Assembly (NCBI RefSeq): GCF_004137855.1
Contig: NZ_QBKB01000002.1
Location: 75,855 to 139,854, forward strand
Length of the DNA: 64,000 bases
Reading direction: 5' to 3'
From: Methanohalophilus profundi
Lineage (GTDB): Archaea > Halobacteriota > Methanosarcinia > Methanosarcinales > Methanosarcinaceae
Shown: positions 12,920 through 58,565 of the stretch, piece by piece
How positions within the stretch are numbered: position 1 is the stretch's first letter
How the letters are laid out: each line of letters opens with the position of its first letter
Made by a program: the position numbers and the translations under genes
The notes under the pieces: generated by a model
Database searches by the model: none
Seen by the model: the letters and a program-made list of their open reading frames with translations, nothing else
Told to the model about the DNA's origin: nothing

Positions 12920-12965
12920 CTATGTATCATATATCTTTTGTAATATAGGCACATCAAATTTGTAG

Positions 12966-13588: not shown

Positions 13589-16110
13589 ATGAAAAGTGTA
13601 CTTGAAGATATTGTCAATGCAAGCCCTGCAATTGTTTTCGTATGGAAGGAGGAGGACAGGTGGCCTGTGGAGTTTGTCTCGAAAAACATCTCTCTTTTTG
13701 GCTATACTCCCGATGATTTTATATCGGGCGCCTTAAGGTACAGTGACATAATCCATCCGGATGACCTTGAAATGGTAACTGAAGAGGTGGAAAAACATCT
13801 GGAAAGTGGAGATGAACAGTTTAATCTTACCTATCGTGTCCTCACCGGGAAAAAAGATGTACGCTGGGTCGAAGAACGTACCATAATCCATCACAATCCA
13901 GATGACACCTACTATGAGGGAATTATCATGGATATTACTTCCAGAAAGATGGAAGATAAAAAGGTCATTGATGGTGCCCTGGGAATGAAAAAAGCCCTCG
14001 AGACAGTAATCAATTCAAGCCCTGTAATTGTTTTCCTGTGGAGAGCAGAAGATGACTGGCCCGTGGAATTTGTCTCGGAAAACATTACACAATTCGGTTA
14101 TGAAGTTGAAGAATTCACATCAGACAAACTGGTGTACGGTGATATCGTTCACCCTGATGATATAGAGAAAGTGCGCCAGGGGAGGCCCGGTGTGTTGCAG
14201 AGGGTAACAGAGAGTTCGCCAAAGAATATCGTATCCTGACAAAAGATGGATATGTACGCTGGGTGGATGAACGCACAAAAATCCAGCAAAATGATACAGG
14301 TGATGTGACATATCTTCAGGGTATAATTGTTGATATTACAGATAGAAAGAATGTGGAAAATGCTCTCTATCTTGAAGAGAAACGTCATGAAGCTCTTTTA
14401 AAACTATATGCCATGTCTGATTCCTCAATTCAGGAAATTATGGATTATGCGCGTGAACAGGCAGTCTTACTAACTGAAAGCAAAATTGGCTTTCTGGCAT
14501 TCCTGGATGAAACAGAAACAAACTATGCGGTTATTTCCTGGTCAAACGGCAAACAGAGTTCAGACGAAGCTCCGGCAGAGAGCTACAGTATCTGGGATGA
14601 AGCACTTTACCATCGCACACCCATAATGAACAACGAATATTTAGCTGAGAAAGATACTGATCCTAAATTAATCCAGAGAAATCTGAGCGTTCCCATTTTT
14701 GAAGGCGGTAGAATTGCAGGTATTGTGGGTGTTGCCAATAAGGAGCAAGATTATACATCTACAGATGTGAGGCAGTTAAAATTGCTCATGCAGGGAATGT
14801 GGAATATAATCCAGCAAAAAGTGGCTGATGAAGAGTTATACCAATATATGGAAGATTTGAAAAGATCAAGTGAAATAAAATCAGTCCTTTCTGATGTCAT
14901 TAAGAACAGCCCTGCAGTCGTATTCATATGGTGGGCCGAAGAAGACTGGCCTGTTGAATTCGTCTCCGAAAATGTAACACAGTTTGGCTACACTGTGAAT
15001 GATTTTCTGTCGGGTAAGCTGGTCTACGCCGATATCGTACACCCATATGACCTGAAAAGGGTCCAGAAAGAACTTGCAAAAAGAATCGATGCGGGACAGA
15101 CTGATTTCAATCAGGAATACAGGATAATGACGAAATTTGGAGATGTCCGATGGATAGATGAAAGGACTTTTATCAAATATGATGAGGATGGAAAAGTAAC
15201 GTATTTACAGGGTATCATTGTTGACATCACAGAAAGAAAGCATTCCGATGATTTCATGCACCTGCAGTATGATCTTGACAGTGTTCTCAGCTCTGCCACA
15301 TCAAATAGCGAGACATTCAACAGGCTACTGGATCTTGCACTGAAAATCACACCCATTGATTCAGGAGCCCTATACCTTGTTGACGATAAAACAGGAGACC
15401 TGGATTTGGTAGCTCATCACGGGCTGTCTGAGCAGTTTGTGAATAGTACCTCCCACTATGAAAGGAATTCAGTACAGACACGACTGATTATGAGCGGACA
15501 GGCGGTGTATAAACATCATTCCGAACTCAGCGCAATTACCAGCGGCAAGAACCTCCGGTACGAAGGTTTGCATGCTACTGCAATAATTCCGATTAGATAC
15601 CACAGCGAGATAATAGCTGCTCTCTACCTGTCCTCACATTCTGAATATGAAATCCCCGATAAATCCAGACATGACCTCGAAACTATAGCAAAACAAATCG
15701 GGGAAGTCCTATCAAATATGCACAAAGAAGCATCCGCCCAAAAGGAGATCAGTGATTTGCAGATATTGATTGACAATGTAAAAGAAGGGATTGCAGTTAC
15801 TGATAAAAAGGGAGCATTGCTTTATACAAATAAGATACTTGAGAAATGGATAGGATACTCTGCAGATGAACTTAAAAAGATGGAGATTACAGATCTATAT
15901 CCGCTGAGATACAGGCATGTCCTGGATTCCGTAAACAAGCCAATAAACCAAAACCAGGCTTATAGCGAAGATATCAGGCTGCATTCAAGCACAGGGAGGG
16001 AAATTCCCTGCAGAGTAACTTTTAAGAATATAAAATGGAACGAAAAGGATTGCATACTTGGAATCTACGAACATATCAATACTTCAGCAACCTCCATTCA
16101 TAATACATAA
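13589..16110 (+). CDS. multi-PAS/GAF sensory protein (frameshifted)
   Basis: Restored, this is about 840 residues: PAS (residues 1-115), PAS (130-250), GAF (265-420), PAS (430-550), GAF (560-710) and a divergent PAS (720-830). Three PAS units carry the WPVEFVS motif and the RWxxERT end. No kinase or output domain follows. As written, the frame breaks at the GGGG run 14179-14182. One more G joins the two parts and restores the PAS spacing seen in the paralogous units (ARCVAEG aligns with RRCREGY). It resembles the smaller protein at 60-812. The ligand and the partner kinase are unknown. Confidence 0.75.
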
Positions 16111-43669: not shown

Positions 43670-45367
43670 ATGAGTGAAAATAACAACAAGATGACAGGTG
43701 CACGCGCAATCATCGAGTGCCTCTATGAAGAAAATGTGGAGGTTATCTTCGGCTATCCCGGTGGTGTCCTTCTTCACATATATGATGAGATATACAAATC
43801 CGATCTCAGACACATTCTTGTCAGGCATGAGCAGGCAGCAGCCCATGCCGCAGAAGGATATGCAAGGGCAACCGGCAAGGTTGGTGTATGTCTTGCAACC
43901 TCCGGACCAGGTGCCACCAACCTTGTAACCGGTATTGCAAATGCCTACATGGATTCTATACCAATGGTCGCACTCACAGGACAGGTGCCCCGTTCAATGA
44001 TAGGCAACGATGCGTTCCAGGAAGCAAATATCACCGGCATCACAATGCCAATCACCAAACACAACTATCTTGTGCAGGATGCAAAGGACCTGCCCCGTAT
44101 AATCAAAGAGGCTTTCCACATTGCATCCACAGGAAGACCCGGACCCGTGTTGATAGATCTACCCAAGGATATAACAACCGAGGAAATCGAATTTTCCTAT
44201 CCGGATAAAGTGGACCTTAAAGGGTACAAACCCACCTACAAGGGAAATCTCCAGCAGGTTAAGCGAGCTGCCTCCGCAATTGAAAAAGCCCATTAGCCTT
44301 TGATATATGCAGGTGGCGGAATACTTGGATCAAATGCCAGTGAAGAGCTACTGCAGTTTGCCGAACATGTACAGACACCTGTAACCACAACCCTTACCGG
44401 TATAGGTGGTTTCCCGACACAACATCCCCTTTACGTGGGAATGCCCGGCATGCACGGAACCAAATATGCCAATTACACCATACAGGAATGTGACCTTCTA
44501 ATAGCAGTCGGTGCAAGATTTGACGACCGCGTGACGGGTAAACTTGCATCCTTTGCACCCAACGCAAAAATCCTGCATATTGACATCGATCCTGCCGAGA
44601 TTTCCAAGAACATAGCGGTGGATATACCGATTGTCGGGGACGCAAAGAACATCCTTGCCTCCCTTAACAAATACGTAAAACCTGTTGAGAAAGAAAACCG
44701 GAAAGAGTGGCTGGACAGGATAGAGGGCTGGAAAAAATCCTATCCTCTGCACTATGTTGGTGAACAGGACGGACTCAAACCCCAATACATTATTGAACAG
44801 ATCTATGAAGCATGCAAAGATGCTATCATAGTTACTGAAGTCGGCCAGCACCAGATGTGGGCAGCCCAGTATTACAAGTTCAGTGAACCCAGGAGTTTCA
44901 TCACATCCGGAGGACTTGGGACAATGGGATACGGCTATCCTGCGTCAATCGGTGCCAAGGTCGGAAAACCGGATAGAGTGGTATTCAATATTGCAGGCGA
45001 TGGTTCATTCCAGATGAATTCCCAGGAAATCGCAACTGCTGTCCAGAATGACATTCCGGTGATCGTAGCCATAATGAACAACGGTTACCTGGGGATGGTC
45101 AGGCAGTGGCAGGAATTGTTCTTTGAAAAGCGTTATTCACATACCTGCATCCGGGACAGTGTTGATTTTGTGAAACTGGCCGAAGCTTATGGTGCGGTTG
45201 GTATCAGGGTTGAGAAAACTTCCGAGGTAAAACCGGCCCTTGAAAAAGCGATGGATTCCGGAAAACCGGTAATTATAGACTTTATTGTAGAATGTGAGGA
45301 AAACGTATCGCCAATGGTGCCTGCAGGTGCACCTATCAATGAAATACTTGACCTAGAGAGGAAATAA
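43670..45367 (+). CDS. ilvB: acetolactate synthase large subunit with in-frame TAG
   Basis: TDP- and FAD-dependent enzyme joining two pyruvates, or pyruvate and 2-oxobutyrate. The first part has [32 protein letters not shown] and [12 protein letters not shown]. After the break come [22 protein letters not shown] and the TDP motif [14 protein letters not shown]. At 44294-44296, codon 209, a TAG sits between IEKAH and PLIYAGGG with no frame change, where many homologues have a charged residue. Reading through gives about 565 residues, the normal length. TAA overlaps the ilvN ATG. Confidence 0.9.
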
Positions 45368-45852
45368 TGAGACACACACTTGCAGTTCTGGTAGAGAACA
45401 AGTTCGGAGTGCTGTCCAGGGTGGCAGGGCTCTTTGCAAGACGTGGATATAATATCGATAGTCTTGCAGTAGGAGTTACTGAAGATCCTAACGTTTCCAG
45501 AATGACCCTGGTGGTCCGCGGAGACGACCATGTCGTAGAACAGGTTAGCAAACAACTGAATAAGCTGATCGATGTGATTCGTGTTACCGATCTTGGTGCT
45601 GACGAATCCGTGGAAAGGGAACTGGCTCTTATCAAGGTTAAGTCCGATAAGGATACAAGGGCTGAGATAATCCAGATAGTTGATATCTTCCGTGCACGTA
45701 TTGTTGACGTAGCGTCAAAATCCATTACCATTGAAGTTACCGGTGATGAAGAAAAAATTGCCGCTATCGAGAAACTTCTCAAACCCTTCGGAATCAAGGA
45801 ACTTGTCCGTACAGGAAGAATTGCCCTAACAAGGGGCTCAAAAAGTTCATAA
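45367..45852 (+). CDS. ilvN: acetolactate synthase small regulatory subunit
   Basis: 161 residues: an ACT domain ([32 protein letters not shown] begins it) plus the ALS-ss C-terminal domain ([21 protein letters not shown]). It activates the large subunit and confers valine feedback inhibition in related systems. ATG 45367 overlaps the ilvB stop by one base, so synthesis of the two subunits is probably coupled. ilvC follows after 29 bases. Confidence 0.94.
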
Positions 45853-45881: not shown

Positions 45882-46889
45882 ATGGTAGATCTATATTACG
45901 ATGAAGATGCTGATTTTTCAGTGATGGATAGCAAGAAGATCGCAGTTATCGGTTATGGCAGCCAGGGACACGCCCAAGCACAGAACCTTCATGACTCCGG
46001 TCTTGATGTAGTGGTCGGCCTGAGGGTTGGTAGCAGACGCTGGAAACAGGCAGAAGAAGATGGCCTGAAGGTCATGTCTGTTGAAGATGCTGCAAGGGAA
46101 TCTGATATCATCCAGATTCTCATGCCCGACGAAGTACAGGCTGATGTATACAGGGATAAAATCGAGCCGGGACTTGAAGGAGGTAATGCACTTGTCTTTT
46201 CCCATGGGTTCAACATCCACTACAACCAGATCGTGCCCCCTGCAGATGTTGATGTCTACATGGTTGCTCCAAAGAGTCCGGGACATTTAGTCAGGAGGAC
46301 CTACATGGACAATGCAGGTGTGCCCGGTCTGATCGCGATCTACCAGGATGCTACAGGCAATGCAAAGAAACTGGCCCTTGCCCATGCCCGGGGTGTGGGA
46401 TGTACCCGTGCGGGTGTCATCGAAACAACTTTCCGTGAGGAAACCGAGACCGATCTGTTTGGTGAACAGGTAGACCTCTGTGGCGGTGTAGCTTCCCTGA
46501 TCAAGAACTCTTTTGAAGTACTGGTCGAAGCAGGTTACAAGCCTGAAATGGCCTATTTTGAAACACTTCACGAAGTCAAACTTATCGTAGACCTCATCCA
46601 CGAAGGTGGACTGGAAAAAATGTGGTATTCTGTCTCCAACACAGCAGAATACGGTGGAATGACAGTTGGACCTAAGGTCATCAACGATGAATCCCGCCTG
46701 GCAATGTATGAAGCCCTGGATCGCATCCAGAACGGTGAATTTGCAAAAGATTTCGTACTGGAAAATAAGGCCAACAATCCTGTCCTCAAAGCAATGGAAC
46801 GTCAGGACAGGGAACACCCGGTTGAAGAGGTAGGCAGGAAACTGCGTGCCATGATGCCCTGGCTTAACAGTGAACTCAACGAAAAGTAA
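45882..46889 (+). CDS. ilvC: ketol-acid reductoisomerase
   Basis: Class I enzyme, 335 residues, that isomerises and reduces acetolactate. The Rossmann motif is [15 protein letters not shown] near residue 22, and [17 protein letters not shown] carries the cofactor-phosphate contact. Metal-site elements are [19 protein letters not shown] near 190 and [19 protein letters not shown] near 225. It is the last gene of the operon and is followed by an oligo-T terminator. Confidence 0.95.
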
Positions 46890-47905: not shown

Positions 47906-50237
47906 TCAGAGCAGATTCTTGAATTTTTTATTGCATTTGCGGTTAATGCAATAATGCCTGGCATCCTTCTTGGGTTCCTTTACCCTGACTATTTTCCACC
48001 CACATTCTTCACAGGTCTCCTTGCGCAGTGTAACACGACCCTTTTTGGGGTATGAACATGTAAAACCACAGCGTCTTGCACATCCCAGGAATTTCGAATC
48101 TTTGGTCTCAATCAATATCATATCAGAGCCACAGGGAGGACATTTTCCTATAACAGTAGGCGGGAAGCATAGTTTTTGCTTTTCACAATTAAAGCATGGA
48201 CCAACTCCAACACTCCAGTAATATTTTCCACCACCGACCTTGAGTACGGCAAATCCGCCCATTTTGCACTCCCGGGAGCGCATTACATCCAGGGAACCTT
48301 TTCGGGGAAGAGGATACGTGTTGCGACAATCCGGATAGCCGCTGCAACCTACAAAACGACCCTTATCAGTACGTATAATGCTCAGCGTCCTGCCACATTT
48401 ATCGCATTTTCCAATGTGATTATTCCTATCTTCAGCCAGTTTTTCATCCTTTATAGAACCTGCAATACGCAGCACAATATCGCCTTTACCGGACTTGAGC
48501 CGGGTATACATTTTCTGTATAAGGACGGTACCTTCACTGATTGCCTCGTCAAAGGATTTCTTTCCCTTTTCAACATCCTCTATCAACCCTTCAATTTTTG
48601 CCCTGATTTCAGGTTGTATCAATATAGGTACTGAAACCCCCAGTGCGTCCATGAGATTAAAACCGGTATCCAGCATCGAAATGGTCTTGCCTTTAATCTC
48701 AAAATAGCCTCTTTTCTTGTTTGTTTCGATGTGTGAAGGGGCTGTTGCCTTGGTTCCTATACCATGTTTATCCATGAGGGTCAGAAGTTCGGCTTCAGTT
48801 AGGCGTTTTGGGAGGTGTGGTCTGGGATTTGGTGTTTGTGAGTTTGTTTACAGCCACCTTGTCCCCTTCTGCCACCGGAGGAAGGAGCTTTTCTTTTGAT
48901 ATCTCAAACGGATAGACCTGTTTCCATCCTTCGGACTTCATAACCGAACCCTTACAATCAAAAGGTTCATCCTTCACATGCACTTCCATGTGAGTTTTTT
49001 CAAAGAGGGCAGAATCCATAAGATTGGCAAGAAAATGACGTACAATCAGGTCATATACTTTCCAGGAATTATCCAGTTTAACTGCATTTTTGATCTGTTT
49101 TTCGGAAACTGCTTTTATAGGATGGATAGGGGGGTGATCATGGCCATCCTTTTTCCCATTACGGGGAGATACTGTCGTTTTGAGTAAATTTTCTGCAAAG
49201 GAAGCGTATTCACCTATCCTGAGCAGGTTTTTAAGCATGGATTTAAAGTCATGATCCTCAGGATAGAGGTTTGTTTCTGTCCTGGGATAACTGATAAAGC
49301 CGGCCAGGTAAAGCTGCTCTGCTATTTCCAGGGCTTTTTCCGGACTGATATCTAGGAATTGGGAAGCCCGTTTGAGGAATTCATTCGTATTTAGAGGATA
49401 AGGAGGATTGATCTGTTTTTCTTTGATATTGAGGCGAAACACGGTCGCTTCTCTGGTGCCCTGCAGTTTTTCATATATTTGTTTTGCAAGTTCAATGTCC
49501 CGAATGTTGCCTTTACGGTGCACACCTTCAAATTCACTGGATCCTGCCTGGAAAACCGCTTCTATTTTCCAGAAATCCTCGGGTTTAAAATCACGGATGG
49601 CTTTTTCCCTTTCATATACAAAACCGCAGGTTGGAGTCTGGCAGGGACCAATTGACAAAATATTTTTTGTGTATGCTTTCTCCCGCACAGCAAGGGTCAT
49701 AAAACGGGTGAAAGCCGCACCCATTCTCAGGTCAAGTATCTGACGGGTATCCGCGGACATGGCCAAATTGGTATCCGGCTCTACGAGATCATCAAAGGCC
49801 TTTTCAACCTCATTTGCAGACAGAGAAGAAAATCTGGCCCTTTTTACCGGCACTTTTCTTACCTGCAGAGCAATATCACGTGCCTCAAAACCGATATTTT
49901 CTCCTTCCCGGTCATAGTCACAGGCAAGTACAATGGAATCGGCCTGCTTTGCAAGTTGCCTGACAGCCCGTTCATAATTTTTCTTGGTGATATTTTTGAT
50001 AGGATTGGCTGTCAGCAGGACCGCAGGGTCAATTGCCTTCCAGTCCCTGTAAGCCGGATCAAAATCATAGGATGTAATGTGCCCGGCAAGACCAATGATC
50101 TTGTATTCATCTCCTTTAGCCACAAAGGAATAAACCGGCAGGTCAGCCACATGCTCTCTTGTACTATTACCTCCGCTCAAAATAGTCGCAAGTTTGGCTG
50201 CAGCCTTGTTTTTTTCAGCAAATACAACAATAGTCAT
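47906..50237 (-). CDS. topA: DNA topoisomerase I, type IA (frameshifted)
   Basis: Single-strand passing topoisomerase. The first part has the TOPRIM start VVFAEKNKAAAKL, ACDYDREGENIGFEA and the active-site Tyr in GFISYPRTETNLYP. The second part continues with LMDKHGIGTKATAPSHIE and three or four zinc-ribbon modules, such as CDKCGRTLSIIRTDKGRFVGC. As written the frame stops after QTTPPK. Removing one base from the four-base run at 48807-48810 gives KRLTEAELLTL and rejoins the two halves, about 776 residues in all. Confidence 0.9.
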
Positions 50238-56839: not shown

Positions 56840-58565
56840 ATGTTTTTCAGTAATCGGCGATATAACATAATAATCATAACTTTCATTGCCCTTCTTTTTA
56901 TAGGTTCTGTTGTTTTTTTGGGGGCACGTTCAAACCTTGAAGTCCAGGAAATCTTTGAGGAACAATATACAGAACAACAGACCCTCAATGCAAAACAAAT
57001 TTCATCGGGTGTCACAGCGTTTCTGAATGAGAAGATAGTGGCCCTGGAAGTAATAGCAGGTGCTGAAAATGGGGTTCCTGATGACTTCTATATGAGATCC
57101 TTCAAATCCCTGTACGAAAGGTCGCAGGGATTTTATGCTCTTGAGTATATCGATGAAAGCGGCACCATTGTCTCAGGTTATCCTGAAGATAGAACACCTC
57201 TGGGATATAACCTGTATGAAAACAACATGGAGCAAGCTTTCCAAAAAACAAAATCTATGGGCAGGACCTATATTACCGATCCTACATACACGTTTGAAGA
57301 CGAACTTGCAATGTATGTGTGGGTTCCCGTGTATTCTGGAAATGATTTCAAAGGAACTGTCCTGGCAATAATACGTATCGAAGAAATCACAGAAAGGGTC
57401 ATACAAAGTTATGATTCATCAGCCGGTTATGTCTACATTATCGATGATAGGGGAAAACTGCTGTATCACAGTGACAACCCAAACGAAACAGGAAAAAATT
57501 ATTTCGACATTCTTAATGAGCCCGACCAGGACCGTCTTTACATACTTGGGGAACAGACAGAAGGAAAGAAGGTGGCGGTCGTTTTGAAGAACTTAATAAA
57601 AACAATGAACTGGAAGAAAAACTCGTATCATACGTACCAATAAAATGGTACAATCAGGTGTGGTCTGTAGGTGTTGTGACACCTGTTCCTTTCATAATTT
57701 CAATTGTGCGCTCCATATACCTGAAACAGGCAACCTTTATGTTAATAACGACATTTTCATTTTGTTCTTCACCTCATTGATATCATTGATCTTTTTCTCC
57801 TGGAATCGTAAACTAGAGGAAGAAGTACATAAAAAAACCGAACAACTTGAAAATTCCAACCAGCGCCTGCAAAAACTCAACCGCGTGAAGAATGAATTCC
57901 TATCCATGGTATCCCATGAATTGAAAACTCCTCTCACAGCCATGCGCACATCAAGTGAGTTCCTCCGGGAAGAAGACTGTGACAAAGAAACACAGGAAGA
58001 AATGCTTGACCTCATAATCCGCAATATAGACAGGCAATCCCGGATGGTTGATGACCTGCTTGATATTTCCCGCATTGAATCTGGCCGGATGGTTTTCAAA
58101 AAGGAAAAGATCAACCTCAAAGAAACCATTGATAATGCAATCCAGATGATGGAACCAATGGCAACAAAACATGGAATTGCCATTGAAAGAGAAGTGGATA
58201 ATAATCCACAGGTCAAAGCAGACAAGGATAAACTGCTGAGAGTTTTTGTCAATTTACTCAACAATGCTATCAAATTCACAGCTGATAAAGGTAAAAACAT
58301 AAAAATTAAAACTGAAGATACCAGAGATTTCGTGGAAATAAGTGTCATAGACAGAGGTATCGGTATACCCGAAAACGAACAGGAAAAAATATTTGAAAAA
58401 TTCTATCAGGTAGACAGTACCTCCCGCCGCAAAGTGGGAGGTAGTGGCCTTGGGCTTGCAATTATCAAGGGAATAATAGAAGGCCAGGGTGGTTCTATAA
58501 GGGTGAAAAGTGAGCCCGGGGTTGGCAGCATATTTACATTTACATTGAGGAAGTGGGAAGAATGA
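56840..58565 (+). CDS. membrane sensor histidine kinase (two frameshifts)
   Basis: Restored, about 575 residues: a span at 9-28, an extracellular Cache-like sensor (30-270), a second and third span, then HisKA with SMVSHELKTPLTAM and HATPase with NLLNNAIKFTAD, DRGIGIPENE and GGSGLGLAIIKG, all intact. As written the frame breaks twice. One base is missing near 57566-57572, after which RFEELNKNNELEEKL continues. A second is missing at the TTTT run 57760-57763, after which LFFTSLISLIFFSWNRK continues. It pairs with the preceding response regulator. Confidence 0.82.

Follow-up and report, generated by a model that had tools for sequence, protein, structure and literature searches.

Does the in-frame TAG inside ilvB of Methanohalophilus profundi end the gene, or is it translated? 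The codon lies in the window, by which we mean the whole stretch of 64,000 nucleotides that was analysed, and a reading made from that sequence without database searches (below, the sequence-only reading) had suggested that it is translated as pyrrolysine (Pyl) at residue 209. The comparisons described here support this suggestion: the host carries pylTSBCD, close congeners have CAG or CGG at the site, TAG is scarce at gene ends, and other housekeeping genes contain TAGs at variable positions. We consider it probable (roughly 0.72) that the TAG reflects a real C-to-T change, private to this genome, which replaces Gln by Pyl at a tolerant residue and still yields a full-length enzyme.

The ilvB frame and the history of codon 209

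The ilvB frame at 43670-45367 contains 565 codons, and its single internal stop is the TAG at codon 209, with no change of frame (Table 1). The codon is present in the assembly exactly where the sequence-only reading had placed it, and the rest of that description held as well: the two parts that flank the stop, of 208 and 356 amino acids, fit a single 561-residue model of the acetolactate synthase large subunit, NF004710, in an unshifted frame, and ilvN and ilvC follow as open frames, ilvN being recognised also by its own family model. When the two parts of ilvB were scanned separately, they scored 420.4 and 670.6 bits with NF004710 (whole-protein cut-off 976) and 351.1 and 513.7 bits with TIGR00118 (whole-protein cut-off 538.35). 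We take ilvC to encode ketol-acid reductoisomerase, keeping the name that the sequence-only reading had given it.

Table 1. Coordinates of the ilvB locus (window positions) and of other in-frame TAG codons in the genus
Feature	Position	Strand	Remark
ilvB before TAG, codons 1-208	43670..44293	+	NF004710 model residues 1-207
In-frame TAG, codon 209, candidate pyrrolysine codon	44294..44296	+	CAG in 4/5, CGG in 1/5 close congeners
ilvB after TAG, codons 210-565 and TAA	44297..45367	+	NF004710 model residues 210-560
ilvN, acetolactate synthase small subunit	45367..45852	+	Open; TIGR00119 222.8 bits, cut-off 56.9
ilvC	45882..46889	+	Open frame
proS TAG, this genome	G000:C2:161534-161536, locus L243	minus	Residue 195 of G003 frame
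proS TAG, G002	G002:C14, locus L257		Residue 77 of G003 frame
Acetolactate-synthase-like gene, this genome	L178:7972-9690	minus	CAG to TAG, codon 225
ThiE-like gene, this genome	L139:9174-9863	+	230 aa; TAG at codon 130
Congener deep TAG, G007	G007:C1, block coordinate 22287 of C1:831000		Residue 75 of 1043-aa frame; one-contig genome
Congener deep TAG, G004	G004:C18, 50975 of C18:265000		
Congener deep TAG, G001	G001:C2, 9627 of C2:52000		

Codon 209 was a sense codon in all 29 relatives in which the ilvB site was read; the conservation of UAG among homologues that is seen in catalytic Pyl enzymes was thus absent. An alignment of sister genes at this codon, which the sequence-only reading had proposed, gave CAG in G003, G006, G001 and G004 and CGG in G007, these five close congeners having IlvB proteins that are 97-99% identical; the residue in the remaining relatives was Arg, Asn, Lys, Gln or Thr. 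The same reading had offered AAG or CAG as the precursor codon, and of these CAG stands, while AAG occurred in none of the five. Because four of them have CAG and one has CGG, the ancestral codon was likely CAG, and the TAG would have arisen by one private C-to-T transition. In an alignment with 36 relatives, position 209 was matched or exceeded in variability by 5.0% of the 565 IlvB positions, and it ranked fourth by this measure among the 23 Gln residues of G003 IlvB. Of the changes in ilvB that are private to this genome, most affected the third base of a codon, and beyond the TAG this held for 20 of 23 coding changes, a bias suggesting that the downstream part of the gene stayed under selection along this branch; the TAG may postdate most of these changes.

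Pyrrolysine genes and the use of TAG as a terminator

The pylTSBCD genes, on which the sequence-only reading had made its proposal depend, were found in the genome: tRNA-Pyl, with anticodon CUA, immediately precedes an intact PylS of 405 amino acids, followed by PylB, PylC and PylD, and all four proteins score above the NCBIfam curated cut-offs. The genome also gave a full-length match to mtmB with one in-frame TAG. All seven congeners have PylS, and a search of 60 genomes gave it in 33, this one included. We considered an aRF1 that had lost its reading of UAG and set the idea aside, as the one aRF1 above cut-off is open, contains the NIKS and YHCDSDF motifs (to which we assign their presumed meaning in this factor) and has nothing obvious to suggest such a loss. 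A local read-through signal at the ilvB TAG found no support, since the RNA downstream formed no unusual PYLIS-type stem-loop (z -0.54; 60 of 200 shuffles folded equally well or better). A cis signal has been reported to be unnecessary for the decoding of UAG as Pyl (PMC8211752), and mass spectrometry has shown Pyl in the MttB protein of Methanohalophilus portucalensis (PMC4928046). PMC8211752 contradicts itself in that Methanohalophilus is said to be without a Pyl system, yet M. mahii is listed with one; we take the sentence denying it as a slip. For one Pyl bacterium, the same source reports that UAG is read as Pyl only on trimethylamine.

We counted TAG at gene ends by two rules. The first took only conserved gene ends, meaning those that agreed between congeners in the fetched stretches, which sampled about one third of this genome. 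By this rule one of 295 conserved genes ended in TAG in this genome and one of 239 in G003, and none did so in the sampled stretches of G006 (190 genes), G007 (82), G004 (73) and G001 (64). Both TAG-ended cases are one frame of 104 amino acids, identical between the two genomes in the part compared, and perhaps not a gene. The second, cruder rule took every ORF of at least 200 amino acids in all genomes alike; TAG then ended 12 of 368 ORFs in this genome and 3 of 673 in five congeners, one of the three being the in-frame case in G001. Two of the 12 were the in-frame cases of ilvB and the acetolactate-synthase-like gene; among the remaining ten, six had TAA or TGA within six codons. In three PylS-negative relatives, TAG ended 11 of 81, 7 of 23 and 1 of 12 ORFs of at least 200 amino acids (19/116 in total). 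The scarcity of TAG ends gave a Fisher P of 2e-10; as this value contrasts the conserved-gene count with the cruder ORF count, it compares two unlike rules. In the stretches sampled, TAG appears hardly to serve as a terminator in this genus.

The corresponding counts in six PylS-positive genera outside this one were 0/55, 0/55, 0/41, 0/24, 3/47 and 7/51, so two of the six still terminate ORFs with TAG; to judge by these numbers, Pyl genera vary in the extent to which UAG has been cleared. In the genus with 7 of 51 (G011; stretches L163, L164, L239 and L240), five of the seven TAG-ended ORFs had TAA or TGA no more than 10 codons away.

The best reading of these data is that UAG would be, in effect, a pyrrolysine sense codon in this genus. 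We propose that the private C-to-T change turned the tolerant Gln codon 209 of ilvB into a pyrrolysine codon; PylB, PylC and PylD would make pyrrolysine, PylS would charge tRNA-Pyl (CUA) with it, and the charged tRNA would read UAG in competition with aRF1 and without a cis signal, giving full-length IlvB with Pyl at 209. Because UAG has been nearly cleared from conserved gene ends, the step from CAG to TAG would cost little and would amount to a near-neutral missense change, not a nonsense mutation. We infer that the base is correct, that the codon is translated, that Pyl is the residue inserted and that the enzyme works.

Other in-frame TAG codons in the genus

In a survey for in-frame stops, congener ORFs were aligned to the stretches, and frames were kept if differences piled up at third positions; we also asked that the flanks be similar and that the sequence beyond the stop show a coding pattern. 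The comparison with G003 covered 260 genes and 76,675 codons, and those with four other congeners covered overlapping sets. All rows past the first filter comprised 9 TAG, 10 TAA and 2 TGA, and hence no excess of TAG; one TAA site enters the count from four genomes, and of the remaining rows most lay no more than 43 codons from the frame start. We called a stop deep if it was separated from the start of the gene by more than 50 codons and from its end by more than 20. Seven of the nine deep stops were TAG, where a share of 0.41 was expected (P 0.03, with a limit chosen after the rows were seen), and in this genome alone four of five (P 0.10), the fifth being TAA; the congeners contributed one TAG each in G007, G004 and G001 and one TAA in G006. 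The four deep TAGs of this genome lie in ilvB, the prolyl-tRNA synthetase gene proS, a second acetolactate-synthase-like protein and a ThiE-like protein.

Prolyl-tRNA synthetase is the strongest single control. Each of the eight genomes of the genus has one match to this family above cut-off, and in two of the eight there is a TAG inside the gene, at different residues. In this genome TGG has become TAG in a protein that scores 639.3 bits with TIGR00408 (cut-off 437). Judged from eight other sequences only, residue 195 (W, G, S, K or A) is in the top 1.4% of 486 positions for variability and residue 77 (Q, E or K) in the top 6.6%; combining these two ranks with the 5.0% for ilvB by Fisher's method gave about 0.003. 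Neither errors nor nonsense mutations, if random, would be expected to favour tolerant positions.

The TAG site of the acetolactate-synthase-like protein, which scores 497.6 bits with TIGR00118 and so falls under the cut-off of 538.35, is variable as well, three congener orthologues having Gln, Gln and Lys there. In the ThiE-like gene, AAA in the two congeners read has become TAG by two base changes, and the gene is free of stops in six congeners. The label ThiE-like, like the label acyl-CoA-synthetase-like in our annotations, is a presumed one. Among the 41 rows of family PF00133 over the eight genomes of the genus there was no internal stop, and among the matches listed for PF00005 over the same genomes there was no TAG and one TAA, in this genome at C2:934283-934711.

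Several further TAGs were set aside: one of the C2:67330 type (block coordinate), at residue 3 and so near the start; C2:1111259, ahead of a stretch matching the polymerase II small subunit model; C2:180234 and C2:132405, in doubtful frames that failed the survey filter; C2:270429, which failed the same filter; and own-block 166311, which adjoins a frame break. The TAG at C2:88776 (window 12922; 12920-12922, minus strand) was also set aside: in the congener frames it corresponds to a residue between 11 and 18 of a TPR protein, perhaps upstream of the true start. It directly precedes an ATG in the gene's 5' part, where congeners have GAG AAG or GAG AAT, and it points to a start that has moved or to a further Pyl codon.

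Competing readings and related systems

The main rival to pyrrolysine at codon 209 is a base-call or assembly error, the true base being C and the codon an ordinary CAG for Gln in an ordinary IlvB, whether or not UAG is read as Pyl elsewhere in the genus. We regard this as unlikely, even though the assembly gives some grounds for it. Frame-broken, multi-piece matches were seen for 13 of 136 genes (one of the 13 resembling a repeat instead of a break); run the other way, the comparison gave 3 of 143 for G003. A DNA topoisomerase gene (Topoisom_bac, Toprim; window 47909-50237, minus strand) is broken near 48806, where a short run of T is one letter too long, most likely through an error of assembly, and the argument that an essential gene should be free of error therefore fails on its own for this genome. 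The ilvB TAG is moreover private to this genome, three of its four deep TAGs come down to a C-to-T change when both strands are considered, and at proS the sequence around the site reads CCTGG, a context in which a methylated C can be miscalled as T. Against an error, private substitutions at codon positions 1 and 2 were not in excess (0.328, compared with 0.310, 0.326, 0.344, 0.407 and 0.297 in five congeners). The contexts of the C-to-T changes are unlike one another, and a single methylation motif behind them was rejected in spite of the CCTGG at proS. The TAGs in ilvB, proS and the acetolactate-synthase-like gene all sit at variable residues, and G002, a separate assembly, carries a proS TAG of its own.

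If instead UAG stopped translation, ilvB would be lost and the strain would import its branched-chain amino acids. The recent and private nature of the change would fit such a loss, but the rest of ilvB, together with ilvN and ilvC, is intact, the pyl system is present, and the same reasoning would kill prolyl-tRNA synthetase in two species, which makes true nonsense very improbable. A split enzyme, in which translation stops at UAG and restarts downstream and the halves assemble, has a precedent in a split Thg1 reconstituted in vitro, but that form was judged unlikely in vivo (PMC6471195) and the scarcity of terminal TAG would be left unexplained, so that we give the idea hardly any credence.

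Pyrrolysine is usually regarded as a speciality of the methylamine methyltransferases. Like MtmB, MtbB and MttB, of which the first is represented in the same genome, ilvB has an in-frame UAG; in those enzymes, however, Pyl is catalytic and conserved, whereas the ilvB TAG is private to one genome and lies at a variable residue. A code in which all TAG codons mean pyrrolysine was reportedly described from archaea in 2025. TAG there is said to be almost absent from gene ends and present within ordinary genes, as in this genus, although the ilvB case comes from sequence and not from proteomics. The closest likeness is to Thg1 (tRNA-His guanylyltransferase) of Methanosarcina acetivorans, a gene that also lies outside the methyltransferases and also has an in-frame amber codon private to its species; for Thg1, unlike ilvB, there is physical proof of Pyl. 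Its amber codon, or Pyl itself, was reported to be dispensable for activity, and a neutral acquisition of Pyl was proposed (PMC2933860; PMC6471195), as it was for some predicted genes (PMC3639795). M. acetivorans is reported to use UAG ambiguously (PMC2933860), whereas the present genus hardly ends conserved genes in TAG.

Capture of Pyl by ordinary proteins is thus a known kind of event, Thg1 being the example. Within the limited literature compared, what is new is the genes affected and the possible dependence of housekeeping functions on Pyl; the word 'acetolactate' is absent from the main text of PMC3639795, a study with M. mahii among its genomes. A wider proposal, which we hold tentatively and put slightly short of an even chance, is that UAG is practically no terminator in this genus, that Pyl has drifted into the housekeeping proteins IlvB, prolyl-tRNA synthetase and the ThiE-like protein, and that Pyl is consequently needed on any substrate. 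In M. acetivorans, by comparison, deletion of pylT was reported to be harmless on methanol, only the use of methylamines being lost (PMC2933860). If the wider proposal is true, the near-neutral capture of a codon would have turned Pyl, the 22nd amino acid, into an indispensable one. A genus with UAG nearly gone from gene ends and present inside ilvB and proS would be a natural and testable case of stop-codon capture. It also bears on how Pyl archaea tell stop from sense, a distinction that this genus may hardly need to make. Standard gene callers split such TAG-containing genes in two.

The sequence-only reading had ascribed the other damaged genes of the window to run-length indels; the frame breaks were confirmed, and only some of them fall in runs of one base. 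Two more genes in the window were frame-broken relative to G003, a PAS/GAF sensor gene (13589-16083) near 14183 and a dCache/histidine kinase gene (56840-58562) near 57565 and 57756.
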